From the NCBI RefSeq assembly GCF_004944975.1, contig NZ_SPQG01000008.1:102614-138301 (forward strand): a stretch of 35,688 bases of DNA, in the 5' to 3' direction. The translations under genes were made by a program, and so were the position numbers. Below are positions 3,509 to 33,872 of the stretch, one piece after another. This DNA comes from Halorhabdus amylolytica (GTDB lineage Archaea; Halobacteriota; Halobacteria; Halobacteriales; Haloarculaceae). Positions within the stretch are counted from its first letter, which is position 1. Every line of letters begins with the position of its first letter. The notes beneath the pieces are model-generated. The model was given only the letters and a program-made list of their open reading frames with translations. It was not told the DNA's origin and ran no database searches.

Positions 3509-3538
3509 GCCGCCTGAGAGACATCGCTCTCAGGCGGC
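3509..3538. repeat. Perfect 12-bp hairpin
   Basis: GCCGCCTGAGAG (3509-3520), loop ACATCG, CTCTCAGGCGGC (3527-3538). It lies about 70 bases after the transposase remnant. It may be an IS-end hairpin; no T-run follows, so a terminator is less likely. Confidence 0.6.
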
Positions 3539-3544
3539 TCTCAT

Positions 3545-3925: not shown

Positions 3926-3927
3926 GT

Positions 3928-8902: not shown

Positions 8903-8904
8903 AC

Positions 8905-10882: not shown

Positions 10883-10917
10883 CGAAACGTTCCAACGTCG
10901 CGGCATACCTTAGATGT

Positions 10918-10970
10918 TGGGTATATTGCAACCACTGGAGATAGTGGTTAGACCGGAGTTTTAAGTGGTG
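10918..10970. promoter_or_regulatory. Bidirectional promoter with candidate TrmB operator
   Basis: Between the divergent operons lie GTATAT (10921-10926, TATA box of the minus-strand genes) and GTTTTAAG (10958-10965, TATA box of the importer operon, about 28 bases before ATG 10990). Between them is a perfect inverted repeat, AACCACT-N6-AGTGGTT (10930-10936 and 10943-10949). A further half-site AGTGGT occurs at 10964-10969, exactly 21 bases after the same half-site in the repeat, about two helical turns. This places the repeat against the upstream edge of both TATA boxes, where a bound regulator would block or help TBP/TFB. That TrmB is the binder is inference. Confidence 0.6.
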
Positions 10971-10989
10971 CTCTACATAGTCATCAATC

Positions 10990-12351: not shown

Positions 12352-12375
12352 GCCCGTCCCCGACCACGTCTAGCC

Positions 12376-13347: not shown

Positions 13348-13349
13348 CC

Positions 13350-14249: not shown

Positions 14250-14252
14250 TCA
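14245..14252 (+). promoter_or_regulatory. Ribosome-binding site of the ATPase gene
   Basis: GGGTGATC overlaps the stop codon of the permease gene and lies 4 bases before ATG 14257. It matches the haloarchaeal anti-SD sequence and suggests translational coupling inside the operon. Confidence 0.55.
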
Positions 14253-14256
14253 CGAT

Positions 14257-15393: not shown

Positions 15394-17377
15394 GCGCGTC
15401 CTCGTGGATGGCGATACGTTCTTCGTGACCGACGAGCGCTTCAAGACCGCGGCTGCGGGCGGACTGTACCACCGCGACACGCGGTACCTCTCGGAACTGT
15501 CGGTGTCGGTCGAGGGGACGTCGCTGACGCCGGTCGGGAGCGATCTCGTCGCGCCCTGGCGGCGCGTCCTCACCTGTGCGGACGTCTCCTCGGCCGTCAA
15601 CGAGATCGACAACTCCGAAGAGCAGAAACACACCACCATCACCCTGACCCGCGACCAGGTGGTCGCCGAGGGCCAGGGGCTGGTCGAGACGCTCGCGCTG
15701 ACGAACCACGTCCCGGAGACGAGGACACTGACGCTGTCGATTGACGTCGCGAGCGACTTCAGCGACCTCTTCGAGATCCGTGGGCTGCGCTCGGACATCG
15801 AACGCGAGGTTGACAACGCGGTCGTCGACGGCGGCGTTCGATTCCGCTATGACGAACCCGGCTCTGACGGCGACGGGCCGACGCTCCTCGCGGGCTTCGA
15901 TCCCGTTCCGTCGACGCTGTCGACCGACGGCGGGACCTACGAGTTCGAACTGGCACCGCAGACCTCGACCGAGGTGACGGTGGCGGCTACCGTCGGCAGC
16001 GGATCGACGGCCGAGGCCATCTCGCGTGCCGTCGCGGCGGCCGGGTGGGAACCGCCGGGTGGTACGCCGGCAATCGAGCACTCCGACAGTCGCTACGCCT
16101 CGTTGTTCGAACAGTCCTGGCAGGACCTGCAGGCCCTGGTCACGGAGACCGAATACGGCCCCGTCGCGGTCGCCGGCGTCCCGTGGTTCGCGACGGTGTT
16201 CGGCCGCGACGCCCTGCTTACGGCGTATAACGTGCTCCACGTGGCGCCGACGCTGGCCGAGGGAACGCTCCGGTACCTCGCCGCGTACCAGGGCAAGGAG
16301 GTCGACGACTACCGCGAGGAACGACCTGGGAAGATCTTCCACGAGATCAGGCGGGGCGAACTCGCCCGGCGCGGCCGCATCCCCCACACCCCCTACTACG
16401 GGACTGTCGACGCGACGCCACTGTGGCTGATCCTGCTGGACGAGACGCGGCGGTGGACGGGCGAAGACGCGCTGGTCGACGACCTTTGGAAGTCGGCACA
16501 GGCCGCCGCCTCGTGGATCGAGCGCGCCGTCGACGACATCGGGGACGACCCGTTCCTCTACTACGGAGCTTCGACGGCCGACGGCCTCGAGCACAAGGCC
16601 TGGCGCGACACCGAGGGCTCGATCCAGTTCGCCGACGGCGAGGCGGCCGAACCGCCCCTGGCCAGCGTCGAGGTGCAGGGCTACGCCTACGACGCCCTCC
16701 GCCGGATGGCGTCGCTGGCCCGCGAGCGCGACTTTGAAGCGGACGCCCGCGAGTACGACCGCCGGGCCGACGCGCTCGCGGCCGCCTTCGACGAGAAGTT
16801 CTGGCTCCCCCAACGGAGGTACTATGCGACGGCGAAGACCGGCGACGGCCGGCTCGTCGCCTCGAAAAGCTCGAACATGGGCCACGCCCTCTGGTCTGGT
16901 ATTGTCCCCGAGGAACGCGCAGATACCATCGTCGACACCCTGCTGGGCGACGGCCTGTACTCCGGGTGGGGGGTGCGCACGATGAGCAGCGACAACAGCG
17001 GGTACAGCCCCGTCTCCTACCACGTCGGGAGCGTCTGGCCCCACGACAACGCGCTCATCGCGCTCGGGGTAGACGCGTACGGCCGGTCGGCGGCCGCCGA
17101 ACGCATCGCCACGGACGTCCTCGACGCCTGTCGGTCGTTCGACTACCAGCGCGTGCCGGAGTTGTTCTGCGGGTTCGACGACGACCGCCCGCCGTATTCC
17201 TATCCCTCGGCCTGCGAACCGCAGGCCTGGAGCGCCTCTGCCCCGTTCGCGCTCCTCCGGCCGCTGTTCGATATCCATCCCGGCGAGACGGGCAGTCCAA
17301 TGGCCAACGCCACCCCCTCCGAGGTCGACATCGACCTCGGGACCGCGCTCTCGGCCGTCGACCCCGGGGGGAACTGA
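15386..17377 (+). CDS. Amylo-alpha-1,6-glucosidase / debranching-type glycosidase
   Basis: 663 aa from the ATG at 15386. An in-frame ATG at 15338 would give a 48-base longer overlap with the ATPase gene, and the family N-terminus begins near the later ATG (VLVDGDTFFVTDERF). The N-terminal beta domain has GGLYHRDTRYLSELSV, typical of bacterial-type debranching enzymes. The C-terminal (alpha/alpha)6 domain shows GVPWFATVFGRDALLTAYNV, then RPGKIFHEIRRGELAR, then GTVDATPLWLILLDETRRW, and GSVWPHDNALIALGV. Related enzymes cleave alpha-linked glucosyl or rhamnosyl branches inside the cell. The specificity here is unknown, and its place between an importer ATPase and a sulfatase suggests it acts on the imported oligosaccharide rather than on glycogen. 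Cytoplasmic. Its stop overlaps the sulfatase start (TGATG). Confidence 0.82.
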   Translation: MTERVLVDGDTFFVTDERFKTAAAGGLYHRDTRYLSELSVSVEGTSLTPVGSDLVAPWRRVLTCADVSSAVNEIDNSEEQKHTTITLTRDQVVAEGQGLVETLALTNHVPETRTLTLSIDVASDFSDLFEIRGLRSDIEREVDNAVVDGGVRFRYDEPGSDGDGPTLLAGFDPVPSTLSTDGGTYEFELAPQTSTEVTVAATVGSGSTAEAISRAVAAAGWEPPGGTPAIEHSDSRYASLFEQSWQDLQALVTETEYGPVAVAGVPWFATVFGRDALLTAYNVLHVAPTLAEGTLRYLAAYQGKEVDDYREERPGKIFHEIRRGELARRGRIPHTPYYGTVDATPLWLILLDETRRWTGEDALVDDLWKSAQAAASWIERAVDDIGDDPFLYYGASTADGLEHKAWRDTEGSIQFADGEAAEPPLASVEVQGYAYDALRRMASLARERDFEADAREYDRRADALAAAFDEKFWLPQRRYYATAKTGDGRLVASKSSNMGHALWSGIVPEERADTIVDTLLGDGLYSGWGVRTMSSDNSGYSPVSYHVGSVWPHDNALIALGVDAYGRSAAAERIATDVLDACRSFDYQRVPELFCGFDDDRPPYSYPSACEPQAWSASAPFALLRPLFDIHPGETGSPMANATPSEVDIDLGTALSAVDPGGN

Positions 17378-18900
17378 TGCGCGTCCTTGTCGTCGACGTC
17401 GACTCGCTGCGGCCGGACCACCTGGGCTGTCACGGCTACGACCGTCCGACGTCCCCAACTATCGACGCGCTGGCCGCCGAGGGTGTCCGTTTCACGTCGT
17501 GTTACGCCTCAGATACGCCGTGTCTGCCCTCGCGGACGGCGCTCGTCTCCGGACGCTTCGGCGCGCGCACCGGGGTCGTCACCCACTTCGGCGACGGCCA
17601 GTGGTACGACCAGCCGGCGGGCGGCCACGACGCCGCGACCGCCCGCCCGCTCGTCCCCCGTTACCTCTCGCGCCACGGCGTCCACACGGCGACGGTAAGC
17701 AGTTTCGGCGACCACCACAGCGCGTACCACTTCAGCGGGTCGTTCACCGACGCCATCCAGCCGACGCCCCGGACCGAAGACGAACACGCCGCGGACGTAA
17801 CCGCCCGCGCGGTGGCGTGGCTTGACCGCCACGCCACCGACGAGGACTGGCTGTTACACGTCCAGTACTGGGACGTTCACCACCCCTACGAGGACGTCGC
17901 CGAAGACGTTGAACGGGTACGACGTGCGGGGTGGTCGCCGGCGTGGCCGGACGCCGAGGCGTTGGCCGCTCAGCAGGGCATGACCGGCCCCCGCAGCGCG
18001 GACCTCTGGCCGACACCCGGCGCCTACGGCGACCCCGCCTACGAGCGCCAGTACGACGACTGGTCGATACCGGACCGCTTCGACTCCACCGACGACGTCG
18101 CGCACCTCGTCGACGGCTACGACGGCGCCGTCCGCAAGACCGACCGCGAGGTCAACCGCCTGCTCGACGCGCTGGCCGCCGCTGGAGTGCGCGAGGACAC
18201 GACCGTCGTCGTCACGGCCGACCATGGCGACGCGCTCGGCGAACACGGCATCTACGCCGAACACGCGCTGGCCCACCCGCCGACCCAGCGCGTCCCGTTT
18301 GTCATCTCCGGCCCCACGGTCACAAGCGGGGGCCGCGCCGTGGACGCGCAGGTCTACCAGTTCGACCTCGCGGCGACGCTGTGTGACTGGTTCGACGTGC
18401 CTGTCCCCGATGGGTGGGATGCCCGCTCGCTGACACCCGCCATCGACGGCGAGTCTTTCGCCGGCCGCGAGGCGCTGGTTTGTGGCCACGGCATCTACAC
18501 CTTCAGTCGTGCCGTCTACGCCGACGAGTGGGTGTACATCCGTATCTACCACCCCGGCGTGTTCTCCCACCCGGGCCTGTTCAACGACGACAGCGCCGAC
18601 GGCCCCGCTGCCGGGCTGGAACTCCTCCACGATCTCGAGGTCGACCCGCACATGACCGAGAACATGCTCGCCGACCGGCCCCGCGTGGCCGGTGAAATGC
18701 GCGACCGCCTGGCCGACTGGGAGCGCCGAACCCGGACGACACGGGACGCAGGCGGCACCGACCCGCTCGTGCACATGGCCGTCGAGAGCGGCCCGTTCCT
18801 GTACGTCGACCCCGTCGAACTGGCGGCGCTGTACCGCGACCTCGGGCGCAGTGACCGCCAGATACGGACGGTCAAACGCGCCGGCGACTTCCCGTTATAG
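17377..18900 (+). CDS. Divergent type I sulfatase (motif CLPSR), last gene of importer operon
   Basis: 507 aa. The start is the ATG overlapping the previous stop by one base. The longer open frame upstream lies inside the glucosidase gene and is not coding. The N-terminus VVDVDSLRPDHLGCHGY differs from the DQ/DD type of the other sulfatases but carries acidic metal ligands. DTPCLPSRTALVSGR has Cys49 for formylglycine, and TADHGDALGEHGIYAEH the second metal-binding Asp-His. The usual GKxHL motif is absent; the equivalent place reads VSSFGDHHSAYHFS. The closest relative in this window is the sulfatase at 27825, also the last gene of an importer operon, sharing the same Cys position and the C-terminal RxxYHPG-like region (IRIYHPGVF here, IRTFHPGMW there). 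No signal peptide. Sulfatase is the best call; the substrate is unknown. Confidence 0.87.
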   Translation: MRVLVVDVDSLRPDHLGCHGYDRPTSPTIDALAAEGVRFTSCYASDTPCLPSRTALVSGRFGARTGVVTHFGDGQWYDQPAGGHDAATARPLVPRYLSRHGVHTATVSSFGDHHSAYHFSGSFTDAIQPTPRTEDEHAADVTARAVAWLDRHATDEDWLLHVQYWDVHHPYEDVAEDVERVRRAGWSPAWPDAEALAAQQGMTGPRSADLWPTPGAYGDPAYERQYDDWSIPDRFDSTDDVAHLVDGYDGAVRKTDREVNRLLDALAAAGVREDTTVVVTADHGDALGEHGIYAEHALAHPPTQRVPFVISGPTVTSGGRAVDAQVYQFDLAATLCDWFDVPVPDGWDARSLTPAIDGESFAGREALVCGHGIYTFSRAVYADEWVYIRIYHPGVFSHPGLFNDDSADGPAAGLELLHDLEVDPHMTENMLADRPRVAGEMRDRLADWERRTRTTRDAGGTDPLVHMAVESGPFLYVDPVELAALYRDLGRSDRQIRTVKRAGDFPL

Positions 18901-19553
18901 CGACTCCAGAACGTCGGCGCCTCGCTCTAGGCAGGCCATCAGTTCCTCGGGGTCGTCGTGTTCGTAGACGAACCACAAGACGTCCGCCTCGCGCGCGGCG
19001 TCGGCACAGCCCTGCACGTCTACGTCGCCCTCTCCGAGTTCGCAAAACTCCCCGTCGGCCATGTCCTTCATGTGGACCAGTTTCACCCGGTCGCCGTAGC
19101 GCTCCAGCAGTTCCAGGGGGTCGTGGCCAGCGGTCGTGACCCACCCCACGTCGATCTCCAAGCCGACCGTCGAGCCGTCGGCGAACACCTCGAACCCGGT
19201 GGTCTCGTCAACTGGGACGAACTCGTGGTCGTGGTTGTGGTAGTGCAGGTCGAACCCGCGCTCGTCCAGCCGCTCCCCGGGACGTTGAGCCGCCCGACGG
19301 TGGCTTTGACGGCGTCGCTGCTCTCTAAGTGCTCCGCGTCGAGGTCGTCCTCCAGTCCCTCGACGCCGACGTGGGCGGCGGCCGCCGCGAGGTCGTGGTT
19401 GCCAAGCAGGTCGACCGCAGGTACGTCGAGGCCCGCGATGCCGCCCGCCAGTTTCACAACGTCGTAGCCCGCTGCAGCCACGGTGTCGAGAATCTCTCGC
19501 ATCGGTCGCTCGGCCGCCCGCACGGTATATAGGTTGATCGCCGTCCGTGTCAT
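18895..19553 (-). pseudogene. Broken TIM-barrel sugar isomerase/epimerase
   Basis: Xylose-isomerase-like TIM barrel family (sugar phosphate isomerase/epimerase, IolE/YcjR type). The first half, from ATG 19553, reads MTRTAINLYTVRAAERP and DVVKLAGGIAGL in one frame up to about 19280. The second half, GERLDERGFDLHYHNHDHEF, then STVGLEIDVGWVTTAGHDPL, then KLVHMKDM, is in another frame and ends at 18895. The metal-site residues of the second half (HNH, GLEIDVGW, HMKD) are intact. Relatives have about 30 more residues between the halves, so a small deletion with a frame change is likely at about 19275-19285. Its stop overlaps the sulfatase stop, tail to tail, by 6 bases. It would have processed a released monosaccharide in the cytoplasm. 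Confidence 0.8.
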
Positions 19554-19624
19554 GTCTCATCGTTCTCCCCACCCCGACAAAAGTACCGGCCCCTCATCCC
19601 AAACGTTTGCGTCCACGCGCTTGT

Positions 19625-19995
19625 GATGACGAGCGCGTTAAGGAGTTGTACAAGGAGGTCCGCTACGAGGAGTTGGAAACGTATCTTTAAGCAGAGTATG
19701 AGACGCTGTACAAGGGCGAAGTAGAGCGGCTCAAACCAGAGTATCCGTCCTTCTGGGACGAAGAGACAAAAGCGTTCACAGGGCCTGTAACGACAAACGC
19801 GATTGAAGGTAAGAACTGACGGATAGTTAAGAAGTTAGGCGTGACATATCGACGGTACCGATCGGCACGCGGCCGGGTATTACTGTAAGCGGTGAGTGAT
19901 TCGCTGTCGCTCTACAGGAACGGACGTCCACACGTGAGCTTTGCCCAAAGTCACGGGACGTTTCGCTTTGAGAAGATCATGGTAGATCACCCACC
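19625..19995 (+). pseudogene. Decayed transposase C-terminal fragment
   Basis: Fragments read DERVKELYKEVRYEELETYL, a stop, then EYETLYKGEVERLKPEYPSF, then FTGPVTTNAIEGKN followed by a stop where relatives have Trp, then RIVKKLGVTYRRYRSARGR, and after a further break VSDSLSLYRNGRPHVSFA. The TTNAIEG and NGRP stretches resemble the C-terminus of haloarchaeal transposases of the mutator or similar type. The family is uncertain. At least three in-frame stops make it non-functional. It sits directly before the IS110-type element. Confidence 0.5.
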
Positions 19996-19999
19996 GCCC

Positions 20000-20305
20000 C
20001 GTCCCACCCAAGTGAAGTGTAATTGCGTATGGCTCGCCGTCTTTCCTCTCAGGATACGATAACGAAGTGAGTCCGCTGCGGGATACATGGGTAGGGTTTC
20101 GATGAAAGCCTGCTAAGTCCCTATACGCCTGGAGTAAGCTAGGGTGGCACGAGGCCGCTATCTGAACGGAGCGAAAAGCGCGTGGTAGTGATCGGCCCGC
20201 ATGCCTAGGAAGTAGCATCATGGGAGGCCGCCCGACTGCCGCCGCAGTCGGGCGGCAAGCCCGCATAGGTGTGGCTCCCTCCAGACAGCCAACCCGGAGG
20301 CAACC
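20000..20305 (+). other. Non-coding left flank of IS110-type element, possible bridge RNA region
   Basis: About 300 bases without a gene before the IS110-type transposase. IS110-group elements are known to encode a structured bridge RNA in the non-coding end upstream of the transposase. Here I see a 5-bp stem CCCTA/TAGGG around 20119-20142 and the strong hairpin at 20227-20256, but I cannot fold the region, and the element boundaries are not certain. A GGAGG ribosome-binding site lies just before ATG 20306. Confidence 0.35.
20227..20256. repeat. Perfect 13-bp hairpin left of IS110-type transposase
   Basis: GCCGCCCGACTGC (20227-20239), loop CGCC, GCAGTCGGGCGGC (20244-20256), 50 bases before the transposase ATG. 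A second hairpin flanks the other end of the gene (21311-21339). Confidence 0.75.
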
Positions 20306-22566: not shown

Positions 22567-23943
22567 TCAACTGGATAGGTGGTTATCACGAACAGTTACT
22601 TCATCCATTACCAATGGTAATGGCTTGTTCTCTTGGATTGTCCGTTCGATTATCTCGAGATACGGTTGTACATACCTGAAAAATGAGCGATACCCAGCGC
22701 ACAGATAATTCAGTCCGAAGTCTCCGGCAGGTGTCGTGATATGCCGATTCTTCGGGCATCCACCGTGACAGAACTCCAGTACGGGACATTCCTGACAGCG
22801 TGCCGGCAATCCTCTGCGCTTATATTCGCCGAACTTACGCTGCTCCTCGCTGTCAAGCATCTCCGTTAGGTGTGTCTGATGGATATTTCCACGTTTGAAT
22901 CCAGGATCAACAAAATGATCACAGGCGTATACGTCGCCATTGTGTTCCATGGCCACTTGATCACCACAGGTCTCATTGTGTACACAGAGACTGGCTTCAC
23001 CGGTTAGCGTTATCTCAAGACACTGGTCGAAAAGTTGAATTGATATGTTTCCGATATCGTTCCGGATCCACTCTTCAAAAATCGTTCGCAAAAATGTACT
23101 ATATACAGCCGGATCAACACTCCACGCAGTCGTCGATGCATCCTTAGCAGCGTCCAGCACATCCTGATACCCATCGTCAACATCCTCGGGTAGATCCGCT
23201 CGCTCTCGCACCCATGGGTACACCGGACGGTCGGATTTGTCCAAATCTGTCCTGAGGGTAGACGAATCCGAGCTGCCCGTACCTATTTCCGAATCAGAGG
23301 GAAACTCGACCAAGGGGATGAACTGTATCCATTCGACTCCTTGTTCTTTGAAAAACTCATAAATCCGTAATGGATACTGGCTGTTGTAGTCGTTGAGAGA
23401 GCAGAGAACGTTATACTCGATGTCATACTTCTGGAGAAGGGACAGGCCGTTCATCACTTCGTCAAAGGTTGGCTTGTCGTTTCGCGTCTTACGGTACCTA
23501 TCGTGGAGCTCGCGCGGACCGTCAATACTAATTCCAACAAAGAAGTCGTTCTCTGCGAAGAACTCGCACCACTCTTCGTCGAGTCGGAACCCGTTCGTCT
23601 GGATCGAATTGACGATATGTGTATCAGTTGGCGCATATTCCTGCTGGAGACGGACAGCCTTCCGATAGAACTCTATTCCACGAAGTGTAGGTTCGCCACC
23701 TTGCCACGCGAACGTGATCTGTGGGCCCGGCTGTGCTTCGATGTACTGTTTGATAAATTCCTCAAGCGTGTCCTCCGACATGCGGAAGTCTCCTCTTCCC
23801 GGATATAACTCCGATTTATCCAGATAGTAACAGTACTCACATTCGAGATTACACGCCGGTCCGGTCGGCATTGTCATCACGTGAAAGGGCACCTCACGTT
23901 CAAGTTCCGGACGGCGAGAGCGCTCTGTCATGTGAATCGACAT
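22567..23943 (-). CDS. Anaerobic sulfatase-maturating enzyme (anSME), radical SAM/SPASM
   Basis: 458 aa from ATG 23943. ATG 23931 is an alternative. The open frame to 24054 runs into a sulfatase fragment and is not part of the protein. Radical-SAM CNLECEYC (Cys31, 35, 38) binds the SAM cluster, and FAWQGGEPTL follows. The SPASM domain has the full auxiliary-cluster set: C-x5-C (CVHNETC), VYACDHF (Cys followed by the Asp proposed as general base in clostridial anSME), C-x2-C-x5-C-x3-C (CQECPVLEFCHGGC), and a last Cys in NYLCAGYRSF. Known enzymes convert Cys or Ser of the sulfatase motif to formylglycine without O2. No signal peptide. It is divergent from, and next to, two sulfatases (24359, 25995), its likely clients. 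AT-richer than the left-hand genes. Confidence 0.93.
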   Translation of the reverse strand: MSIHMTERSRRPELEREVPFHVMTMPTGPACNLECEYCYYLDKSELYPGRGDFRMSEDTLEEFIKQYIEAQPGPQITFAWQGGEPTLRGIEFYRKAVRLQQEYAPTDTHIVNSIQTNGFRLDEEWCEFFAENDFFVGISIDGPRELHDRYRKTRNDKPTFDEVMNGLSLLQKYDIEYNVLCSLNDYNSQYPLRIYEFFKEQGVEWIQFIPLVEFPSDSEIGTGSSDSSTLRTDLDKSDRPVYPWVRERADLPEDVDDGYQDVLDAAKDASTTAWSVDPAVYSTFLRTIFEEWIRNDIGNISIQLFDQCLEITLTGEASLCVHNETCGDQVAMEHNGDVYACDHFVDPGFKRGNIHQTHLTEMLDSEEQRKFGEYKRRGLPARCQECPVLEFCHGGCPKNRHITTPAGDFGLNYLCAGYRSFFRYVQPYLEIIERTIQENKPLPLVMDEVTVRDNHLSS

Positions 23944-24041
23944 TCGTCTTAGAAGGGCAAAACTCTTCCGTACGGAGGGGATTGTATTTCTTTCTGACTT
24001 TGGAGTCTGGCATGGTCCAGAGTGACGAAGCCGTGGGCCAC
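23944..24041 (-). promoter_or_regulatory. Upstream region of anSME
   Basis: On the minus strand GAAATACAAT (23981-23990) is a TATA-like stretch about 40 bases before ATG 23943, giving a predicted transcript start about 14 bases before the ATG. It fits the choice of ATG 23943 rather than the longer frame. Confidence 0.35.
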
Positions 24042-24190
24042 TGGCATTACCCACATGACGGGAATCAGAGTGCCCGCTTGTGCCGTACGAACCGGTTAGT
24101 GGAATCTGATCGAATTCTTTGAAACCATTTGGATCGAACTCGACGACCCCGAAAAGGATGTTTCCGAAGCGATCGAACCTGTTTTGGCCA
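24042..24190 (+). pseudogene. Sulfatase 3' fragment, decayed duplicate
   Basis: This stretch aligns at DNA level, with small gaps, to 25538-25696 inside the intact sulfatase downstream. Both read TGGCATTACCC, share GATCGA(A/G)TTCTTTGAAAC and GGATCGAACTC, and end in GGCCA. In protein terms it keeps HWHYPHDGNQS (HYPHYGNQG in the intact copy). The rest of the gene is absent and the frame is broken. The region 24191-24330 after it is unexplained; a minus-strand stretch LLRRLHFRTWAVKRKFG there may be an IS remnant. Confidence 0.78.
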
Positions 24191-24330
24191 GTTCCGCGAT
24201 CTCGTGCTGAAATGTGCCGTCAAAAATGCCGAACTTGCGCTTGACCGCCCAAGTACGGAAATGCAGGCGTCTCAACAAGGCCAATATTGTTTCAGTTTCA
24301 ATCGTATGCGAAATAATGCCACGGAAACAC

Positions 24331-24338
24331 TTTTTATT
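24331..24338 (+). promoter_or_regulatory. TATA box of the sulfatase at 24359
   Basis: TTTTTATT lies about 25 bases before ATG 24359. This favours that ATG over the in-frame TTG at 24344. Confidence 0.5.
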
Positions 24339-24358
24339 ATCCGTTGATCATAGTTAAT

Positions 24359-25816
24359 ATGGACCCAGCAGGCATGAATATCGTCTGTATCGTCGCGGAC
24401 GATCTAGGTTGGCGAGATCTGGGTTGTTACGGAAGTTCGTTTTACGAGACCCCGAATATTGACGCCCTCGCACGAGATGGTACACTGTTCACCGATGCTT
24501 ACGCAGCCTCGCCGGTCTGTTCTCCGACACGAGCAAGTCTTATAACCGGAAAGTATCCCACCAGAGCCGGGATCACTGACTGGATCGATTTCCGCGGTGA
24601 GACTCATCCACTTCGTGGCAAAGTTATCGACACGGAATATCAGACTCATCTATCTTCTCAAGAGACAACCCTCCCCGAGGTATTGAAAGAAAAGAATTAC
24701 GAAACCTATCACGTCGGAAAATGGCATCTCGGAGGAGAAGGTCAAAAGTCGCTCCCGGGTGACCACGGCTTTGACGTGAACATCGGTGGCTGTGAATGGG
24801 GCAAACCAAACGGATCAAACGGGTACTTCGCACCGTGGGAAATAGAGACATTAGAAGAGTCAGAGGAAGATGGGCGTTACCTTCCCGACAGACTCAGCGA
24901 AGAAGCAAGTAACCTAATAGAAAACAGCCTCGATAGAAATGATCCGTTTTTCTTACACTACAATCCCTATTTGGTACACACGCCGATACAGGCACCCGAC
25001 GAAACCGTAGAAAAATACGAAAAGAAACGTCAAATCCTGGGCCTCGACAATGTGAAGGAATTTGAGGTTGGTGATCGGATGCCGACTGAAGACAAGAAAC
25101 ACGAACGAATCAAACGCCGCAAGGTACAGTCGAATCCAACATATGCGGCCATGGTCGAATGGCTTGACCGGAGCGTCGGTCGAATCCTCAATTCGATTGA
25201 AAAAACCGGTCAGCTTGAAGATACTATTGTCGTGTTTACGTCCGACAACGGAGGGCTTGCCACCGCTGAAGGATCACCGACGACTAACAGGCCCCTTGCG
25301 GAAGGAAAAGGATGGATGGAAGAAGGAGGGAATCGGGTACCACTTATCATTCGCTGGCCCGGTGTCACGGACCAGTCGGTGCTGGCGTCCGTCCAGCGGA
25401 CGCCGGTAATAACACCGGACCTATACCCGACACTACTTGATGCCGCCAACTGTTCACTTCCTGCAGATCAATACATAGACGGAAGCGATCTACGACCACT
25501 TCTCAGCGGTAAAACGATAGAACGCGATGTCATTTTTTGGCATTACCCGCACTACGGGAACCAGGGTGGGACACCCGCTAGTGCCGTTCGAACAGGTAAG
25601 TGGAAACTGATCGAGTTCTTTGAAACTAATCGGATCGAACTCTACGACCTCGAAAGTGATATCTCCGAAACGATCGATCGAAGCAAAGACCGGCCAAAGA
25701 AGGCCGAAGAGCTCACCAATAGGCTCCACGAATGGCAGGAAAAGGTCGATGCTGCCATACCTGAGAGAAACCCCGAGTTCGAACCCTGGCCGGACCGTGC
25801 AGCCCCTGACCAGTAA
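24359..25816 (+). CDS. Type I sulfatase (motif CSPTR), cytoplasmic
   Basis: 485 aa from ATG 24359, chosen because the TATA box is about 25 bases upstream. NIVCIVADDLGWRDLGCYG is the classical arylsulfatase N-terminus with metal ligands Asp14 and Asp15. SPVCSPTRASLITGKYP has Cys54 for formylglycine. GKWHLGG and TSDNGGLAT (Asp-Asn metal pair, as in arylsulfatase A-like enzymes) follow. The C-terminal subdomain contains HYPHYGNQGG and AVRTGKWKLIEFFE, a typical surface of exo-acting carbohydrate sulfatases. No signal peptide or lipobox. Among the six, this one is closest to the classical arylsulfatase A/B type. A broken copy of its 3' part lies just upstream. It is divergent from anSME. Confidence 0.92.
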   Translation: MDPAGMNIVCIVADDLGWRDLGCYGSSFYETPNIDALARDGTLFTDAYAASPVCSPTRASLITGKYPTRAGITDWIDFRGETHPLRGKVIDTEYQTHLSSQETTLPEVLKEKNYETYHVGKWHLGGEGQKSLPGDHGFDVNIGGCEWGKPNGSNGYFAPWEIETLEESEEDGRYLPDRLSEEASNLIENSLDRNDPFFLHYNPYLVHTPIQAPDETVEKYEKKRQILGLDNVKEFEVGDRMPTEDKKHERIKRRKVQSNPTYAAMVEWLDRSVGRILNSIEKTGQLEDTIVVFTSDNGGLATAEGSPTTNRPLAEGKGWMEEGGNRVPLIIRWPGVTDQSVLASVQRTPVITPDLYPTLLDAANCSLPADQYIDGSDLRPLLSGKTIERDVIFWHYPHYGNQGGTPASAVRTGKWKLIEFFETNRIELYDLESDISETIDRSKDRPKKAEELTNRLHEWQEKVDAAIPERNPEFEPWPDRAAPDQ

Positions 25817-25994
25817 TTTTCTGCATCACCTGCTCGTACTGACAATGGGGGGTATCAGCCTCGGAATCCATTGTTCTACGTATCCAGAGATGTAACTCAG
25901 CAGGGAGTACAGCCCTTACAGGTGTATCGATATTAGCCATGTGTGATGCCAACGAAGGCAAAGATTTTGATGATCGTCTTCGAACTCAGCTAGT

Positions 25995-27290
25995 ATGCCT
26001 GCAGACAACCCGAACGTACTTTTGATTACCACTGATCAGCAACAGGCGACAGCACTTGGTTCCCTCGACGAAACGTTTGAGACACCGAACCTCGACCGTC
26101 TCGCGACGTCAGGGACACAGTTCACCGGATGTTATTCAACGAGTCCGCAATGTTCGCCCTCACGATCGTCATTGATCACGGGCCAGTATCCTCATCAGAA
26201 TGGGATGTATACACTTCCAGAATGGGGACCGGGATCATTGACCACTAACGTACCTAGCATCGGTCGTGTATTCCACTCATCAGGATACCGAACGGCGTTC
26301 ATTGGGAAGTGGCATCTGGGAGAGCGGAGTCCCAGCGAATATGGCTGGGAAACCGTCAAAAACGTTCACGAGACGTCGAATCCACCGGACGGATTCTCGA
26401 CGGACAAAGAGACGCGAGACCTCGCCGTCTCTCATCTCTCTTCGCATGACGACAATCCCTTTTTCCTGACTGTATCGTTCAATCTCCCCCACCCGCCATT
26501 TATGGAGGACAATCGCTTTGCCGACTGGTTCGCCTGGGAAGATGTCCCACTCCCAGAAAGTTTCGAGGACGACTTAGCTGACAAACCAGCGTTCCAGCGC
26601 GACCGTGCGGCTGATCCCGACGAGGGAAGTCTCAGTGCGGACGATGTCCGCGATATCGGCTACAAGTACCGGACAATGACCGCGCGGGTGGATGATCACA
26701 TCGGGCACATCCTTGATACGCTTTCGGATCAGGGACTAGACGATACCACCGTCGTTGTTTTCACGAGCGATCACGGTGATATGCAAGGGGCTCACGGTCT
26801 CAACAAGAAAGGAGTGATCGCCTACGACGAAATTCTCCGCGTGCCGCTGATCGTCCGTGTCCCTGGACGGGTTTCGAAACGAGATCGTATTCCCGACTTG
26901 TTTTCGAATCGCTCGATTCCAGCAACGCTACTCGACTCCGCAGGCATTGACGCTCCCGACCCGTTCGATACTGGGAGTGTTCTTGAAGCGTTCGAGCGGA
27001 CCTCACCACCGGCAGATGAGCGGATATTCTTCGAACACAAATACGCATACTGGGGAGAACATCCCTATCGTGGCGTCCGGACTCGACGATGGAAATTCGT
27101 CGAATACTTTCACGACGAGCCGAACGAACTGTACGACATGAAAAACGATCCTCACGAGCTGACCAACCTCGCTGAAGACCCTGCCCACAACGAGACTGCT
27201 AACCGTCTCAAACAGCAGGTTCATTCCTGGTGGCAACAGACTGGTGGCGATACCAACGAGTGGGTTGAGCCTGTAAACTACAATCACTAA
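25995..27290 (+). CDS. Type I sulfatase (motif CSPSR), cytoplasmic
   Basis: 431 aa. NVLLITTDQQQATALGSL opens the fold with Asp14/Gln15. SPQCSPSRSSLITGQYP has Cys53 for formylglycine. GKWHLGE, then FTSDHGDMQGAHGLNKKG (Asp-His metal site), then LRVPLIVRVPGRVS follow. The C-terminal part has GVRTRRWKFVEYF and ELYDMKNDPHELTNLAED. It belongs to the same broad group as the sulfatases at 3928 and 5589 (DQ-type N-terminus, DHG second site). No signal peptide. It follows the CSPTR sulfatase by 178 bases on the same strand, with a TATA-like GATTTTGA about 28 bases before the ATG, so it may have its own promoter. Confidence 0.92.
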   Translation: MPADNPNVLLITTDQQQATALGSLDETFETPNLDRLATSGTQFTGCYSTSPQCSPSRSSLITGQYPHQNGMYTLPEWGPGSLTTNVPSIGRVFHSSGYRTAFIGKWHLGERSPSEYGWETVKNVHETSNPPDGFSTDKETRDLAVSHLSSHDDNPFFLTVSFNLPHPPFMEDNRFADWFAWEDVPLPESFEDDLADKPAFQRDRAADPDEGSLSADDVRDIGYKYRTMTARVDDHIGHILDTLSDQGLDDTTVVVFTSDHGDMQGAHGLNKKGVIAYDEILRVPLIVRVPGRVSKRDRIPDLFSNRSIPATLLDSAGIDAPDPFDTGSVLEAFERTSPPADERIFFEHKYAYWGEHPYRGVRTRRWKFVEYFHDEPNELYDMKNDPHELTNLAEDPAHNETANRLKQQVHSWWQQTGGDTNEWVEPVNYNH

Positions 27291-27373
27291 CGATTGCTTC
27301 AGTACTCCACCGACCTACTGCAATCGATTGATCCGCTTGTACTTTCGCCGACAGTACGTCCAAGAGGTAAACA

Positions 27374-27401
27374 GCCTCGGGCGCGGTGGCCCGAGGCTTT
27401 T
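27374..27401 (+). terminator. Hairpin with T-run after sulfatase gene
   Basis: GCCTCGGG (27374-27381), loop CGCGGTGG, CCCGAGGC (27390-27397), followed by TTTT. It lies 84 bases after the sulfatase stop and looks like an intrinsic terminator, though it may equally be an end structure of the IS200/IS605 remnant that follows. Confidence 0.5.
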
Positions 27402-27430
27402 GTACTTCCCTCAGCCGTGCGCTAGCACTC

Positions 27431-27451
27431 CCTGTTCCGCAAGGGAACGGG
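27431..27451. repeat. Second hairpin in the IS200/IS605 remnant region
   Basis: CCTGTTCC, loop GCAAG, GGAACGGG: an 8-bp stem with one G-T pair. With the hairpin at 27374 it forms a structured non-coding block before the TnpA remnant. Confidence 0.45.
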
Positions 27452-27503
27452 ATGAGAGTGGGCGGCTTACACGCCCCGACCCGGACAGACGCACCAACCG
27501 AAC

Positions 27504-27765
27504 TTGCGGCTGGGTTTTGTGAGTCCGGTAATTCGATTCGTTACCGTCGAGTTTCGCCGTCTCGCGCCACGCGATGTTCATCCAGCGGACATCGCTCGGC
27601 AATTCAAGTCGTATTCGGGTAAGCACTTGCTGGACCGGTATCTCGAGATTCGGGAGGCGAATTTCTGGGGTGGCGGATTCTGGAAGGTCGGGTACTACGT
27701 AGGAACGATGGGAGCGGTATCGGAAGAAGTTATTGAACGGTAGATTGAGGAGACAGAACACTAGG
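27504..27765 (+). pseudogene. IS200/IS605 TnpA remnant (Y1 transposase C-terminus)
   Basis: The stretch ADIARQFKSYSGKHLLDRYL, then REANFWGGGFWKVGYYVGTM and GAVSEEVIER, is the C-terminal part of the small IS200/IS605 HUH transposase. The N-terminal half with the HUH motif is missing. After EVIER the frame meets TAG (27741-27743) where relatives have Tyr, then continues IEETEH to a second TAG (27762-27764). It is therefore inactive. Structured GC-rich DNA before it (27374-27500) may be remains of the element's ends. No TnpB gene is present in the window. Confidence 0.72.
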
Positions 27766-27824
27766 CCGAGTGTCGGGCTTCACCTCCGACCCCAGTGGGC
27801 CGGGGAACTCGCCCTCGCAGGTTG

Positions 27825-29201
27825 TTAGATACCCTCCCAATCGTCCTTGAAAGCGTTGTATCCTGATGGTCCATCATGGGCTACCGTTTTGAGTGGGTCG
27901 TCCTTACTATCGCCATAGGTTTCAATCCATTCTTCCATCAGATTCCGCATTTCTTCCGCTATCGGATCATGTTCGTCGATCACATTCTCTTGTTCCCAAG
28001 GATCATTCTTCATATCGTAGAGTTGCTCTTCGGGAACTACGCTCTCCCACATGCCCGGATGGAATGTTCTGATGTACTTCCAGCGATCCGTTCTGACCGC
28101 ACGTTGGGCAGTATAGAGCCCGTGATCGACGACAATATGATCACGCCAATCCGCGGTCTGTTCCTCGACGAGATTCCGGAGCGATCGACCGTGCCACCGA
28201 CTTGGCGTATCTATTCCCGCGTAGTCCGCGAGGGTGGGTGCTATATCGACGTTTGTAACTAACTCTTCTCGAGACGACTGAGCGACAGTATGATCTGTCG
28301 GCGGCTTCACGATCAGCGGCACCCGTTGGGTTGCGTCGTGGGTACTCCAATGTTCCCGGTAAAGACCGTGTTCTCCGAATTCCTCCCCATGATCCCCTGT
28401 AAGAACTATAGTGGCTTCATCATACAAGCCTGCGCTCTTGAGGTACTCAAGGAGTCGACCCACCTGTCGATCCGCATACCGAATCTCAGCGTCGTAATGT
28501 GACAGCAACTCGTTGAGGTCCGATCGATCATCCACATTCATGTGTGAAGCTGATCGCCACGCGTCCCACGTTTGATGCCGTTCGATATCATCCTGGGTCG
28601 GATATGGTGGCAGATCGACTGACCGGAACTGGTCAATTTCTTCTTCACTTCGGTTGTAGGGAACATGTGGATCCCACAGCTGAACGTAGAGATAGACGTC
28701 GTCCTCACGGACGCGCTTGATTGTGTCGAGAGCACGATCGATGATATATTCTCCCTGGATGGCCTGAAAGTCATCCGTCTGGGAAGATTTGGGCTGATGA
28801 TACTCGTCCCAGACATGGTAGAACCAAGGGGCTGGGTGTTGAGGAAACGACCCGATACCGATTGATTTCCACTGGTTCTCGAAAAACAGCTCAGGAAGAG
28901 TATACCAAAGTTCTGTATCAATTTTCTCATCAGGGCCGCCAGCCCAGTCAACCTGAGTTGCTGGGTGATTTATATGCTGTGATGCCTTTCCATGTGTTTC
29001 GATCCCCGTGTCGATTCCGTACCGGCCCGTAATCGTGCCAGCTCTGGAGGGAATACAGGGGGAATTTGCACAGTAGGCCCGCTCGAACTTCGTACCTTCA
29101 GCTGCCAGGGAGTCGATATTCGGTGTGGTTTCGGCTTCGTACCCGTACGATCCGATATGATCCGGTCTGAGCGAATCAATGTCTATATGTACTACTAGCA
29201 C
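27825..29201 (-). CDS. Divergent type I sulfatase (motif CIPSR), last gene of importer cluster
   Basis: 458 aa, with a GTG start at 29201 (no ATG fits the family N-terminus). VVHIDIDSLRPDHIGSYGY matches the sulfatase at 17377 closely. NSPCIPSRAGTITGR carries Cys49, at the same residue number as in 17377. LTGDHGEEFGEHGLYREHW is the second metal site. As in 17377, GKxHL is missing; the equivalent place is IGSFPQHPAPWFYHVW. The C-terminal DHGLYTAQRAVRTDRWKYI is shared too. It lies 57 bases after the second permease, on the same strand, ending the transporter gene set. AT-rich bases in the gap could hold an extra promoter. No signal peptide. The substrate is unknown but probably related to that of 17377. 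Confidence 0.88.
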   Translation of the reverse strand: MLVVHIDIDSLRPDHIGSYGYEAETTPNIDSLAAEGTKFERAYCANSPCIPSRAGTITGRYGIDTGIETHGKASQHINHPATQVDWAGGPDEKIDTELWYTLPELFFENQWKSIGIGSFPQHPAPWFYHVWDEYHQPKSSQTDDFQAIQGEYIIDRALDTIKRVREDDVYLYVQLWDPHVPYNRSEEEIDQFRSVDLPPYPTQDDIERHQTWDAWRSASHMNVDDRSDLNELLSHYDAEIRYADRQVGRLLEYLKSAGLYDEATIVLTGDHGEEFGEHGLYREHWSTHDATQRVPLIVKPPTDHTVAQSSREELVTNVDIAPTLADYAGIDTPSRWHGRSLRNLVEEQTADWRDHIVVDHGLYTAQRAVRTDRWKYIRTFHPGMWESVVPEEQLYDMKNDPWEQENVIDEHDPIAEEMRNLMEEWIETYGDSKDDPLKTVAHDGPSGYNAFKDDWEGI

Positions 29202-29258
29202 GTCGATTAATTAGAGATTGAAATAGTTAAATTTATCTTAAAGAATTTGAAATATACA

Positions 29259-30203
29259 CTATGCTGTTCCACCGCCGGTGATCCCCTTGGCGAACTTATC
29301 GCCCGCGAGAATGAAGACTACAACTGTCGGAAGTGCAGTCAACAGTGCACCGGCCATCCGGAGGCCATAATTGATTCCCTCAAGGGACTGGCCGAGGCCA
29401 CCCAATACGAGTGTCGCCGGCGCAGCTGGATGGCCTGAACCGGACATAATAATCAACGGAAAGAGAAAACTATTCCAGACTTGGGTGAAGTGGAAGATGA
29501 AGACAACTGCGAACATCGGGACAGAAATCGGTAGGATAATACGCTGATAAATTCGGAAAATATTGGCACCGTCGATTTTAGCCGCTTCAACCAACTCCTG
29601 ATTGATCGTCTGATAATACCCGCGGAATAATACTGTAACCACGGGGATCCCATACGCGATATCACTGATGATCAGTGCGATGAGATCGCCATGATACGGC
29701 TCAAGGAGAGGAAGACCCCACAAAATCCCAAGGTGATCTTCCAAGGGGACGTAGACTGTCCAGAACCGTGCTAACGGCACAATCGCTGCTTGCGTTGGGA
29801 AGAACGTCGCTGAGACCAATAACAATAGAACAGCAATCTGACCCCGCCAATCGATCTGAGTAATAGCATATGCAGTCAAGCTCCCGAGGACGGCAGTAAT
29901 TGTGGTTGCAGGGATCGCTCTGAGGAAACTATTGACCAATCCGCCTTGTAGAACGTCAAACGCTTGTCCCCATTGTGCGAGAGTAAACCCGTCCTGCCAC
30001 GGGAACACGGGAACGAACGGAAGAGTTCCTGTCACTGCAGTGCGAGTTTTGAACGACGTGACAATCGCGACTACAAGAGGGAACAGGAAGATGATAACAA
30101 GTGTGAACGCAATGGTGTATACGAGCAATTTCCGATACGTCCAGTCCTCGTAGCTGAACGTCAGCTTCGAAGCCACTCGACGATACGTCGATTCCGAACT
30201 CAT
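29259..30203 (-). CDS. ABC sugar importer, permease 2 (MalG-like), second system
   Basis: 314 aa from ATG 30203, which overlaps the stop of the upstream permease by 4 bases (ATGA). The open frame reaches back to 30299 but only inside that permease. Six hydrophobic segments, the first in LLVYTIAFTLVIIFLFPLVV. The EAA loop reads LVEAAKIDGANIFRIYQRII. It is the partner of the permease at 30200-31150. Sequence and codon use differ from the importer at 12376-14249, so this is a separately acquired system rather than a recent duplicate. Confidence 0.92.
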   Translation of the reverse strand: MSSESTYRRVASKLTFSYEDWTYRKLLVYTIAFTLVIIFLFPLVVAIVTSFKTRTAVTGTLPFVPVFPWQDGFTLAQWGQAFDVLQGGLVNSFLRAIPATTITAVLGSLTAYAITQIDWRGQIAVLLLLVSATFFPTQAAIVPLARFWTVYVPLEDHLGILWGLPLLEPYHGDLIALIISDIAYGIPVVTVLFRGYYQTINQELVEAAKIDGANIFRIYQRIILPISVPMFAVVFIFHFTQVWNSFLFPLIIMSGSGHPAAPATLVLGGLGQSLEGINYGLRMAGALLTALPTVVVFILAGDKFAKGITGGGTA

Positions 30204-31150
30204 AGTTGATTCACCCTGTATTGATAGTAAATATACGGAGAAATAATTCCAAGGGCGAGAGCGAACAGGATAACTGCGATCGCGGCACCATAGGCCCATT
30301 CGAGTTTCTGGAACGCTTCGCGCACCATCTTTGTCGCGAGTATATCTGCACCGACTTGAGGACGGTACTGACCGAACATAGCGAACAAGAAGTCGAAGGT
30401 TTTCAGTGCAAATACCATCAGAATTACTGCGGCTGAAGCCATTGACGCCTTCAATTGTGGGATGATCACGCGCCAGTAGATCCGATACTTCTTTGCGCCG
30501 GCTACTCGAGCAGCCTCAAAATGTTCATCCGGTATAGCTCGAAGGCCGGCCAGGTACACGACCATCGTGTATCCAGTGAACTGCCACGCGAGGGCGATGA
30601 TCACCGCAGCCAGAATATGATCCGGGTTTCCGATGATCTCGATGGGCGGAAGTCCTATCGCACCAGTAAGGGTGTTGACGACACCATAGTTGTAATTATA
30701 GATCCATAACCAGACCTGGCCGGTGACAATAAATGCGAGGCTAAACGGAAGCAAATAAATCGTTCGTAGTTTTCCTCGAGAGCGAATATCCTGATCTAGC
30801 AGGATAGCTAAAGCCAGACCGAGGATTAGACATAAAACTGTAAAGGCTACTAATAGTACAAACGTGTTCTGGGTGGCAAAAAGTAGCTGGGAATCCGATA
30901 GAGCGCGAACGTACATATCGAAATCCAGGCTATCGAAAGATGCACGGCCGAACCCGCTGAGATCGGTTAGAGAAATTATGAAGTTCCAAATTATCGCCCC
31001 ATAAATAAATAGACCAACAAGAGAGACGGGGAGAAGCCAGAATGGAAGTGATTTTACGAAGTCGTTTTTGGTTAGCTTCCTTATCCAGACTTGATTGTGA
31101 CCAATCTGTTTATTTTTTGCCCCTTTTTCTGTTCCCATCTTTTTCACCAT
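30200..31150 (-). CDS. ABC sugar importer, permease 1 (MalF-like), second system
   Basis: 316 aa. A short basic N-terminus is followed by six hydrophobic segments, beginning LPFWLLPVSLVGLFIYGAII. The EAA loop is HFEAARVAGAKKYRIYWRVI. It forms the CUT1 channel with the overlapping downstream permease. The ATG at 31150 is preceded by an AT-rich gap of 77 bases after the binding-protein gene. Confidence 0.92.
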   Translation of the reverse strand: MVKKMGTEKGAKNKQIGHNQVWIRKLTKNDFVKSLPFWLLPVSLVGLFIYGAIIWNFIISLTDLSGFGRASFDSLDFDMYVRALSDSQLLFATQNTFVLLVAFTVLCLILGLALAILLDQDIRSRGKLRTIYLLPFSLAFIVTGQVWLWIYNYNYGVVNTLTGAIGLPPIEIIGNPDHILAAVIIALAWQFTGYTMVVYLAGLRAIPDEHFEAARVAGAKKYRIYWRVIIPQLKASMASAAVILMVFALKTFDFLFAMFGQYRPQVGADILATKMVREAFQKLEWAYGAAIAVILFALALGIISPYIYYQYRVNQL

Positions 31151-31227
31151 GATGTGTTATAATATTGTATTATATTTCTCGGATAGGGTCGATTGTAGTT
31201 CATCATGTTTCGGTGACGGATAAACGT

Positions 31228-32595
31228 TCAGATTGTATCGATTATCCCTTGTGAAGTCTCATCAACATTATACGGTCCCATGAAGTTACTCGAAAATACC
31301 TCACGAAGATCAACCAAAGTACCAGGGGAAACAGCCAGTCCGTGGGCTACTGTAGGTGGTCGGTATTCAACGTTCTGGAAGTCTTCCATTGTCTCAGTGA
31401 GGAACGGACCGAATTCTTCCATCGACACGTCAGAACGCAGTGGTATCGAACCTTTGTGTTTGTTAAAGTTGACCTGTGCTTCCTTTGATCCGACATAGCG
31501 ATGCCATCGAATAGATTTTTCCGGTGAAGGATTATCCGCTGGAGAGACAAACGCGTCCATGTGCAAGGTGTACATGTTCGAAGTACCGGGGAAAGCGATC
31601 CAACCCCAGTCTTCTTCATACGTTAGATCGTTCGCATTGTACCCACCAGCCATCCAGTTACCCTGGTGGTAAAATCCGGCATCTCCGTTCATGATCTTCT
31701 GGTTTGCTTCTGGCGGATTCACCGTCGCCGAGTCCTCGTTGAAGAATTGGGCGTATTGACGGTGCATATCTACACTCTCTCGGACTTCTTCGAGATCTCC
31801 CTCTCCATTCATCACGTCCATGTATGATTGATACCCGTGCATCCCGAGGTGAATCGCACCCCATAACTGTAACTGGGTATTGGAATTTGCCATCGACTGT
31901 GCCATCCCGACAGCGTCCGTTTCGGCCTCGACGGTTTCCATCAGTGGGATCAGGTCAGCTGGTGACTCGACATCTTCGGGGTTGACACCAGCACTTTCGA
32001 TCACATCCATGTTGTAGAAGAGATTGTTGAGTCGGTGGGACCCGATCGGAACAGTGACGTATCGACCATCGAACCTGCTGAGTTCCTTAGCTTCATCAAT
32101 AAATGCACTTTCCATATCGTCATGGGCCCACACGGACTCAGTGATGTCCCCCAGTATTTGAGTATCCGCTTCGATGAATTGCGTGAGGTGGGCACCCGGC
32201 CATGCGTTGAACGAACCTGGTGGATTTCGATTAGCGAGACGCTGATTGATAAGTTGATTCAACTGGACGTTAGCTGTTGCACCGACCGCTCTGAAATTGG
32301 TCTCAATATCGGGATATCGCTCTTTAAATCCTTCAGCAACCGCGTTAATCGCATTTTGTCCTCCACCGCCTGTCCAAGCATGGAGAACTTCAAGGGCGGT
32401 GCTGTTGTACTGTGTTTCTTCAGTGGCCTCCGTACTACCGTTGTCTCCTGTATCACCGCCCTCAGTGTCGGCCGGCGCCTCGGTCGTGTCGCCGCTCCCA
32501 CAGCCTGCGAGGCCGACCGTCGCGAGCCCCGCGGCCGTTCCGATCACTGTTCGACGCGAAACCGAATCGCTGCCGGTACCGTTATCTGCTGTCAT
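31228..32595 (-). CDS. ABC sugar importer, substrate-binding lipoprotein, second system
   Basis: 455 aa solute-binding protein. Tat motif SRRTVIG (Arg14-15) and lipobox GLAGC (Cys32) make it an exported lipoprotein. An acidic Thr/Gly/Asp spacer (about residues 35-60) leads to the binding domain starting ALEVLHAWTGGGGQNAINAV, then QRLANRNPPGSFNAWPGAHL. A TATA-like CATAAAAATCG (about 32636-32645) lies upstream, so it may have its own promoter besides that of the ATPase gene. Odd: the first 140 or so bases, covering signal peptide and spacer, are GC-rich like the left half of the window and like the ATPase gene, while the rest is AT-richer. The ligand is unknown; from context it is a sulfated oligosaccharide. 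Confidence 0.93.
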   Translation of the reverse strand: MTADNGTGSDSVSRRTVIGTAAGLATVGLAGCGSGDTTEAPADTEGGDTGDNGSTEATEETQYNSTALEVLHAWTGGGGQNAINAVAEGFKERYPDIETNFRAVGATANVQLNQLINQRLANRNPPGSFNAWPGAHLTQFIEADTQILGDITESVWAHDDMESAFIDEAKELSRFDGRYVTVPIGSHRLNNLFYNMDVIESAGVNPEDVESPADLIPLMETVEAETDAVGMAQSMANSNTQLQLWGAIHLGMHGYQSYMDVMNGEGDLEEVRESVDMHRQYAQFFNEDSATVNPPEANQKIMNGDAGFYHQGNWMAGGYNANDLTYEEDWGWIAFPGTSNMYTLHMDAFVSPADNPSPEKSIRWHRYVGSKEAQVNFNKHKGSIPLRSDVSMEEFGPFLTETMEDFQNVEYRPPTVAHGLAVSPGTLVDLREVFSSNFMGPYNVDETSQGIIDTI

Positions 32596-32711
32596 ACACT
32601 TCGGTGTTCAACATACTCATACATAATGATTGTGTTCGATTTTTATGGGGGATTAGACGCAGAAGAAACTACACGGCCACGAGAACCGACGCGAAAGGGG
32701 GATCTCTGACG

Positions 32712-33872
32712 TCAGGCCGCCTCGGCGCCGCGGAGCGGGCGGTCGCCCTCGACATCCCCGAGGTCACGGTTGTGGAGGGATTCGCCGGTCTCGCCGTCGA
32801 AGATGTGGATCGCGTTCTCCGGAATCCCGACCCCGATTGACTCCGCCCCCTCGACGTTTCGCATGCCACTGATCGTCGCGGTCAGCTCGGATTCGGTCCG
32901 ATCCTGGCCCTCGAAGGCGACGTGGACGGTGTTCTCGTTCCCCATCGGTTCGACCACGTCGACGATACCCGGGAACTCGTGATCGCCGCTCGCCGCGTCC
33001 AGGATTTCGATGTCTTCCGGCCGGATTCCCAGAACGAGGTCCGTCTGATCTCCCAGATTCGCGCGCGTTTCCTCCCTAAGGGGATACTCGAAGTGCTCGC
33101 CGACGAGTCGACCGTCCTCGAGCGTTACAGGGAGGAAATTCATCGACGGTTCACCGATGAATCCGGCGACGAACTGGTTGTTGGGGCGGTGATAACATTC
33201 CAGGGGTGTCCCGATCTGCTGGAGTTTACCGTCATTCAGGACGGCGATCCGGTCCGACATCGTCATAGCCTCGGTCTGGTCGTGGGTGACGTAGATCGTC
33301 GTCGTGTCGAGGTCCTCCTGGAGGTGCTGGAGTTCGGTCCGCATCTCCGAGCGGAGCTTCGCGTCGAGGTTCGCCAGCGGCTCGTCGAGCAGGAACGCGT
33401 CCGGTTCGCGGACGATCGCCCGCCCGAGCGCGACGCGCTGTTGTTGACCCCCGGAGAGTTCGTCCGGTTTGCGATCGAGGAGATCGTCGATGCCGAGCAT
33501 CGTCGCCGCGTCCTCGACGCGCGTGTGGATCTCCTCATCGCTGAGATCGGTCGCCTCCTCGAGCCCGAAGGACATGTTCCCCCGGACGGTCATGTGGGGA
33601 TACAACGCGTAGGACTGGAACACCATCGCCACGTTCCGTTCCTGGGGCGAGAGATGCGTGACTGCCTCGCCGTCTACGCTGATGGTCCCTCTGGTCGGCT
33701 TCTCGAGGCCTGCGACCATTCGGAGCGTCGTCGACTTGCCACACCCCGACGGGCCGACCAGGACCAGGAATTCGCCGTCCTTGATGTCGATGTTCACATC
33801 GTCGACCGCGACGATTTCCCCGCTCTCATCCTCGAAGATTTTGGTCACTTCATCGAGCGTCACGTTCGCCAT
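32712..33872 (-). CDS. ABC sugar importer ATPase (MalK/UgpC-like), second system
   Basis: 386 aa. Walker A GPSGCGKS near residue 40, Q-loop VFQSYALYPHMTVRGNM, signature LSGGQQQRVALGRAI, Walker B AFLLDEPLANLD, H-loop TIYVTHDQTEAMTMSDR, and a C-terminal OB-fold regulatory domain (LVLGIRPEDIEILDA). It powers the second CUT1 importer and lies upstream of its binding-protein gene on the same strand. The gene is GC-rich, unlike the permeases and most of the binding protein it serves. A TATA box on the minus strand (CTTATTTAAAA, about 33895-33906) lies about 27 bases before the ATG, suggesting a leaderless transcript. Confidence 0.94.
   Translation of the reverse strand: MANVTLDEVTKIFEDESGEIVAVDDVNIDIKDGEFLVLVGPSGCGKSTTLRMVAGLEKPTRGTISVDGEAVTHLSPQERNVAMVFQSYALYPHMTVRGNMSFGLEEATDLSDEEIHTRVEDAATMLGIDDLLDRKPDELSGGQQQRVALGRAIVREPDAFLLDEPLANLDAKLRSEMRTELQHLQEDLDTTTIYVTHDQTEAMTMSDRIAVLNDGKLQQIGTPLECYHRPNNQFVAGFIGEPSMNFLPVTLEDGRLVGEHFEYPLREETRANLGDQTDLVLGIRPEDIEILDAASGDHEFPGIVDVVEPMGNENTVHVAFEGQDRTESELTATISGMRNVEGAESIGVGIPENAIHIFDGETGESLHNRDLGDVEGDRPLRGAEAA

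Follow-up and report, generated by a model that had tools for sequence, protein, structure and literature searches.

A probable scar of a lost sister sulfatase gene between anSME and an intact sulfatase gene in Halorhabdus amylolytica

Two relics in the spacer between anSME and its neighbouring sulfatase gene

The divergent genes for an anaerobic sulfatase maturase (anSME) and an intact CSPTR-type sulfatase of Halorhabdus amylolytica are separated by 415 bases that hold two relics, one of a sulfatase gene and one of an IS5-family insertion sequence (IS), which meet at the tetramer TCGA (24173-24176; all positions are those of the window, the whole stretch of 35,688 nucleotides analysed here). 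We consider it quite probable that this stretch is the scar of a lost sister sulfatase gene, a neighbouring copy that was, together with an intervening IS, mostly removed by deletions. Taken alone the finding matters little; what it amends is the view of the anSME-sulfatase region, in which the spacer is occupied by the remains of two different elements.

The features of the locus are collected in Table 1. The start codon of anSME, as read from the sequence, is the ATG at 23943 or the one at 23931. The intact gene at 24359-25816 has both the sulfatase domain and the CSPTR motif that mark sulfatases of the PF00884 kind, and the motif TTTTTATTA, located about 20-28 bases before its ATG, could be its TATA box. 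Next to anSME, 23944-24041 was compared with the intact gene, with the flanks of that gene and with 25995-29300, and in no case did the similarity exceed that of 300 shuffles, so that we rejected it as a further recognisable sulfatase piece or a copy of the upstream region; a search of 146 family genomes with 23920-24045 gave, apart from the query, nothing but short matches with E values no better than 0.002.

Table 1. Features between anSME and the 3' end of the intact sulfatase gene (window coordinates)
Feature	Position	Strand	Basis
anSME, anaerobic sulfatase maturase (radical SAM/SPASM)	22567..23943	-	NCBIfam TIGR03942 485 bits, cut-off 349; Pfam PF04055 and PF13186
Spacer sequence, anSME to sulfatase relic	23944..24041	.	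no convincing similarity
Sulfatase gene relic (pseudogene), homologue of the intact gene's WHYPHYGNQGG region	24042..24176	+	alignment
TCGA at the junction, common to the intact sulfatase gene and the nearest IS copies L004 and L005	24173..24176	.	
IS5-family insertion sequence, 3' end (end of transposase gene and right end of element)	24173..24282	+	76-83% identity to four IS copies
IS right terminal inverted repeat, one base off the form GGCGTCTAAACAAGGCC	24266..24282	+	
76-base region upstream of the intact sulfatase gene, after the IS end	24283..24358	+	
Intact CSPTR-type sulfatase gene, 485 aa	24359..25816	+	Pfam PF00884 182 bits; CSPTR in translation
Relic-matching part of the intact sulfatase gene	25538..25677	+	alignment, repeat finder

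The sulfatase relic has sharp borders and a broken frame

Local alignment of 24042-24176 with 25538-25677 gives 114 identical bases among 135 aligned ones plus a single 5-base gap, and a repeat finder yields the same two blocks. The alignment score of 152 lies far above the maximum of 29 obtained from 500 dinucleotide shuffles, which rejects chance similarity and bears out the partial sister copy of the neighbouring sulfatase gene that the initial annotation had described in this spacer. That annotation had let the similarity run on to 24190 and 25696. The repeat itself is real; its homology ends at 24176 and 25677. Of the bases that follow on the right, 1 of the first 10 and 5 of the first 20 agree; to the left of 24042, agreement with the intact gene is likewise confined to 2 of the nearest 10 and 5 of the nearest 20 bases. 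Both borders of the homology are thus sharp, the longer extent is rejected, and 24177-24190 belongs to the 3' end of an IS5-family transposon rather than to the sulfatase sequence. Across the 26 contigs of the same genome, no match to the relic at E <= 0.001 was found besides itself and the intact gene.

As the initial annotation had noted, the 5' part of the gene is missing; the 3' part (25678-25816) is missing too, with IS sequence in its place. Instead of a partial duplicate inserted as such, the repeat looks like the remainder of a longer gene that was cut on both sides and fused at its right cut to an IS5-family relic. Its reading frame is broken by the 5-base gap, which shifts the frame, and by a TAG stop that replaces a lysine codon, and these two lesions show the decay of the relic. 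Judged from what is left of it, without active-site part, CSPTR motif or open frame, the relic falls outside the PF00884 kind of sulfatase gene and makes no sulfatase.

Twenty of the 21 base differences of the relic (one at its end was left out) were set against 81 relatives, i.e. 80 loci and genome G061. At 24069, 24142 and 24149, each of them a first or second codon position, the relic stands alone: its base occurs in none of the 81 relatives, which all share that of the intact gene. All relatives likewise carry the intact gene's base at 24057, an agreement that was built in by selection, since IFWHYPHY was one of the scan patterns and WHYPHY the motif used to choose the rows. When the differences are polarised with two outgroups, G061 and Halocatena marina, we count 9 of 20 sites at which both have the base of the intact gene and 1 of 20 at which both have that of the relic; the other 10 stay undecided.

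At the codon level, 18 of 41 codons differ between relic and intact gene, and 11 of these 18 differences are nonsynonymous, a share as low as was reached in 2.0%, 5.2% or 7.1% of neutral simulations (5000, three transition rates). For pairs of intact genes, nonsynonymous changes account for 11 of the 26 codons in which the intact gene of the window differs from that of G061, for 12 of 30 when it is set against Halocatena, and for 12 of 22 when G061 is compared with Halocatena. The share seen in the relic is not far from the last of these values, so that the codon measure alone does not show decay. It falls between both expectations and gives a weak hint that part of the divergence may have arisen while both copies were in use.

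An IS5-family relic is joined to the sulfatase relic at a shared tetramer

To the right of the sulfatase relic, the sequence from 24169 or 24173 to 24282 matches dispersed copies of an IS in related genomes. With only four candidates per genome scored, matches to 23930-24360 at E <= 0.001 were obtained in 14 of 146 family genomes, the own genome included; of the matches listed for the other genomes, each of the 29 falls in query positions 239-371, which is the IS part; searched at the same depth of four candidates per genome, the sulfatase part of the relic was found in none of the other genomes among these 146. Used alone, 24190-24345 matches 13 of the 146 genomes at E up to 0.1, and 4 of these 13 have nothing better than 0.01. 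The own genome has one other, weak match to the IS, with 66% identity over 354 bases.

The window piece covers the transposase C-terminus only (tblastn E 2e-9). What it matches in L004, L006, L007 and L009 is the C-terminal end of a complete transposase frame, and the whole transposases of L004 and L009 match the IS5-family model NF033579 at 212 and 209 bits (cut-off 140). The alignment with the IS copies stops exactly at the right terminal repeat: the copies terminate in GCGTCTAAACAAGGCC or near forms, of which the end in the window has one changed base. Of the 15 IS loci inspected, both ends are present in 14, and in 13 of the 14 there is flanking sequence on either side; L008 and L010 are counted as two loci yet are alike in the stretch shown. 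By our reading, a direct repeat of 8 or 9 bases adjoins the ends of 6 of the 13 flanked copies and is absent from the other 7. Within the IS5 family, the ISH1 group makes target duplications of 8 bases; the relic described here is not assigned to ISH1.

Neither a left terminal repeat nor a whole element was found in the window, so that the piece is a relic, and the 8 bases that follow its right end have no partner (at up to 2 mismatches) starting between 23901 and 24180. As both the left end and a target duplication are absent, the place of IS insertion is a presumed one; the left flank of the IS has probably been deleted. Downstream of the intact gene, where an IS relic could be a trace of an IS-flanked tandem duplication, none of four IS copies matched.

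At the joint of the two relics, the sulfatase part ends in a TCGA that the intact gene has at 25674-25677 and that the IS copies L004 and L005 carry at the same place in the transposase gene. At even base composition, 1.6% of random joints would share four or more bases. A tetramer that is common to the intact gene and to IS copies, and that would so rarely be shared by chance, points to a deletion at a 4-base microhomology. Among the observations that count against the scar reading as a whole, no partner was identified for the left cut, where 23944-24041 matches nothing convincing, and the near IS copy L006 is without TCGA at the joint.

The history that we propose would start from a sister copy of the intact sulfatase gene that was once whole, had arisen next door and stood in the interval towards anSME, pointing the same way as the intact gene. 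An IS5-family IS, the right end of which preceded the intact gene by 76 bases, would have lain between the two sulfatase copies and carried a TCGA of its own in the transposase gene. In the order presumed here, a deletion joining the two TCGA tetramers would have taken the 3' end of the sister copy along with the left part of the IS, and a separate loss would have taken the first part of the sister copy. The remaining scrap has gained a frameshift and a stop. The undeleted arrangement was not found in any genome searched, with one genome per species.

Origin of the second copy

Among the loci compared, the nearest relative of the relic is the neighbouring intact gene, with a score of 88.5 against 47.5 for the next best locus, L088, under the same scoring. 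This makes an old sister copy next door the likely and simplest reading of the relic's sequence; local duplication itself is not proved. Relic and intact gene also have in common the bases of 21 sites at which neither outgroup agrees with them, a likeness to which their shared low G+C may add. That the neighbour is the nearest relative is what a local tandem duplication would produce, whereas the flanks show no similarity and neither G061 nor G040 has two full copies. A full second copy in relatives, for which the initial annotation had suggested to look, is thus not seen in these two genomes, each of which has one match to the intact protein. Matches to this protein at E up to 1e-100 occur in 3 of 146 family genomes (at most 10 candidates scored per genome) and in 2 of a sample of 391 genomes of the class (at most 4 candidates scored per genome), with a single match per genome and the own genome included in both counts.

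A variant that is compatible with this best reading, and that we regard as a somewhat doubtful possibility, is that the second copy did not come about by local duplication, the relic being a resident gene beside an imported, diverged allele or the reverse. An imported allele next to a resident relic would look the same as the loss of a sister copy, and an import would fit the composition of the island genes (about 50-54% G+C, compared with 64.6% in window 1-20000), the few family genomes with an orthologue at the threshold given above, and the codon changes (11 of 18 nonsynonymous), which are less often nonsynonymous than in neutral simulations and hint weakly that both copies were used. Against it stands that no compared sequence is nearer to the relic than the intact gene is, L088 being the next best. 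It is improbable that the scrap arrived already truncated, for example as cargo of the IS or through repair, without ever having belonged to a whole gene at this place. The 135 bases that alone remain and the IS end directly attached to them would suit such an event, whereas in L004, L006, L007 and L009, the four copies with an intact gene among those whose frames were inspected, the transposase frame runs through this place and holds no sulfatase sequence; the joint lies inside the transposase gene, which argues for deletion rather than cargo. We give hardly any credence to a present role of the stretch as part of a control region or as a gene for a short peptide. It does make up much of the 415 bases between two divergent genes, and the relic shares its frame, in the first part, with an ATG at 24012, but the sulfatase part occurs in no other of the 146 family genomes (again with four candidates scored per genome) and the intact gene retains 76 upstream bases after the IS end.

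The initial annotation had further proposed that recombination between the two copies could delete the segment between them. Such an event would cost about 1.5 kb and with it the beginning of the intact gene, and the longest identical runs shared by relic and intact gene measure 11 bases, which is short for homologous recombination; the proposal is therefore weakly founded, and we consider such recombination doubtful.

The sulfatase island and its relatives

The six sulfatase-like proteins of the window that we compared, five confirmed by Pfam and the sixth (16966-18900) placed by similarity alone, are 23-32% identical to each other. This gives no support to a general expansion of sulfatase genes by recent local duplication, as had been suggested from the repeat, and each orthologue-bearing relative has a single match. 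The anSME, sulfatase and transporter genes on the right of the window (22567-33872) have about 50-54% G+C, the first 20 kb 64.6%, and these genes perhaps form an imported island. In G061, the sulfatase orthologue is found near the same transporter genes, with permeases of 75% and 77% and a binding protein of 83% identity. Between a permease gene and this orthologue lies a 40-residue fragment (L126 9123-9242) that is 75% identical to the third sulfatase of the window (27825-29201). Halocatena marina, the sulfatase gene of which (L036) is identical to that of G040, has an anSME homologue in pieces that adjoins the sulfatase orthologue (L127 6116-8239), and between these pieces there are transposase-like frames with a DDE_3 domain and a helix-turn-helix domain. 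Broken genes thus occur in both related islands examined. anSME is rare in the family, with matches at E up to 1e-60 in 2 of 146 genomes, the own one included; in the second, G046, no match to the other compared window proteins was seen within the 19.5 kb covered.

It is a tentative and rather unlikely generalisation that haloarchaeal sulfatase islands turn over as sister or foreign copies are gained again and again and then lost piece by piece at short repeats. If it were true, scraps between genes would record the history of changes in substrate, and the G061 fragment and the anSME pieces of Halocatena marina would be further cases.

Comparison with known systems

The stretch combines the remains of two known kinds of element. 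At the transposase end and in the right terminal repeat, its sequence is that of the haloarchaeal IS5-family insertion sequences that match NF033579 (L004, L006, L009 and others), of which it retains only about the last 110 bases. Its other part is homologous to the conserved WHYPHYGNQGG region of PF00884-kind CSPTR sulfatases encoded beside anSME, from which it differs in having neither the active-site part nor an open frame.

A close parallel comes from Haloquadratum walsbyi, for which short direct repeats of 4-20 bases are reported as sites of deletion (4-mers in six cases), as well as short C-terminal transposase remnants and many pseudogenes (PMC3119063). The likeness to our locus covers the haloarchaeal host, the proposed short-repeat deletion, the C-terminal transposase remnant and the pseudogene. 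In that study, however, the deletions are seen as indels between two strains and the transposons described with the remnants are of the IS605 type, whereas here an IS5-family element is concerned and the deletion is deduced without its undeleted state (PMC3119063). Decay of this kind has already been described in Haloquadratum (PMC3119063), and the probable scar reported here is an ordinary trace of gene loss: a worked example, in a haloarchaeal sulfatase island, of a gene lost probably at a short repeat.
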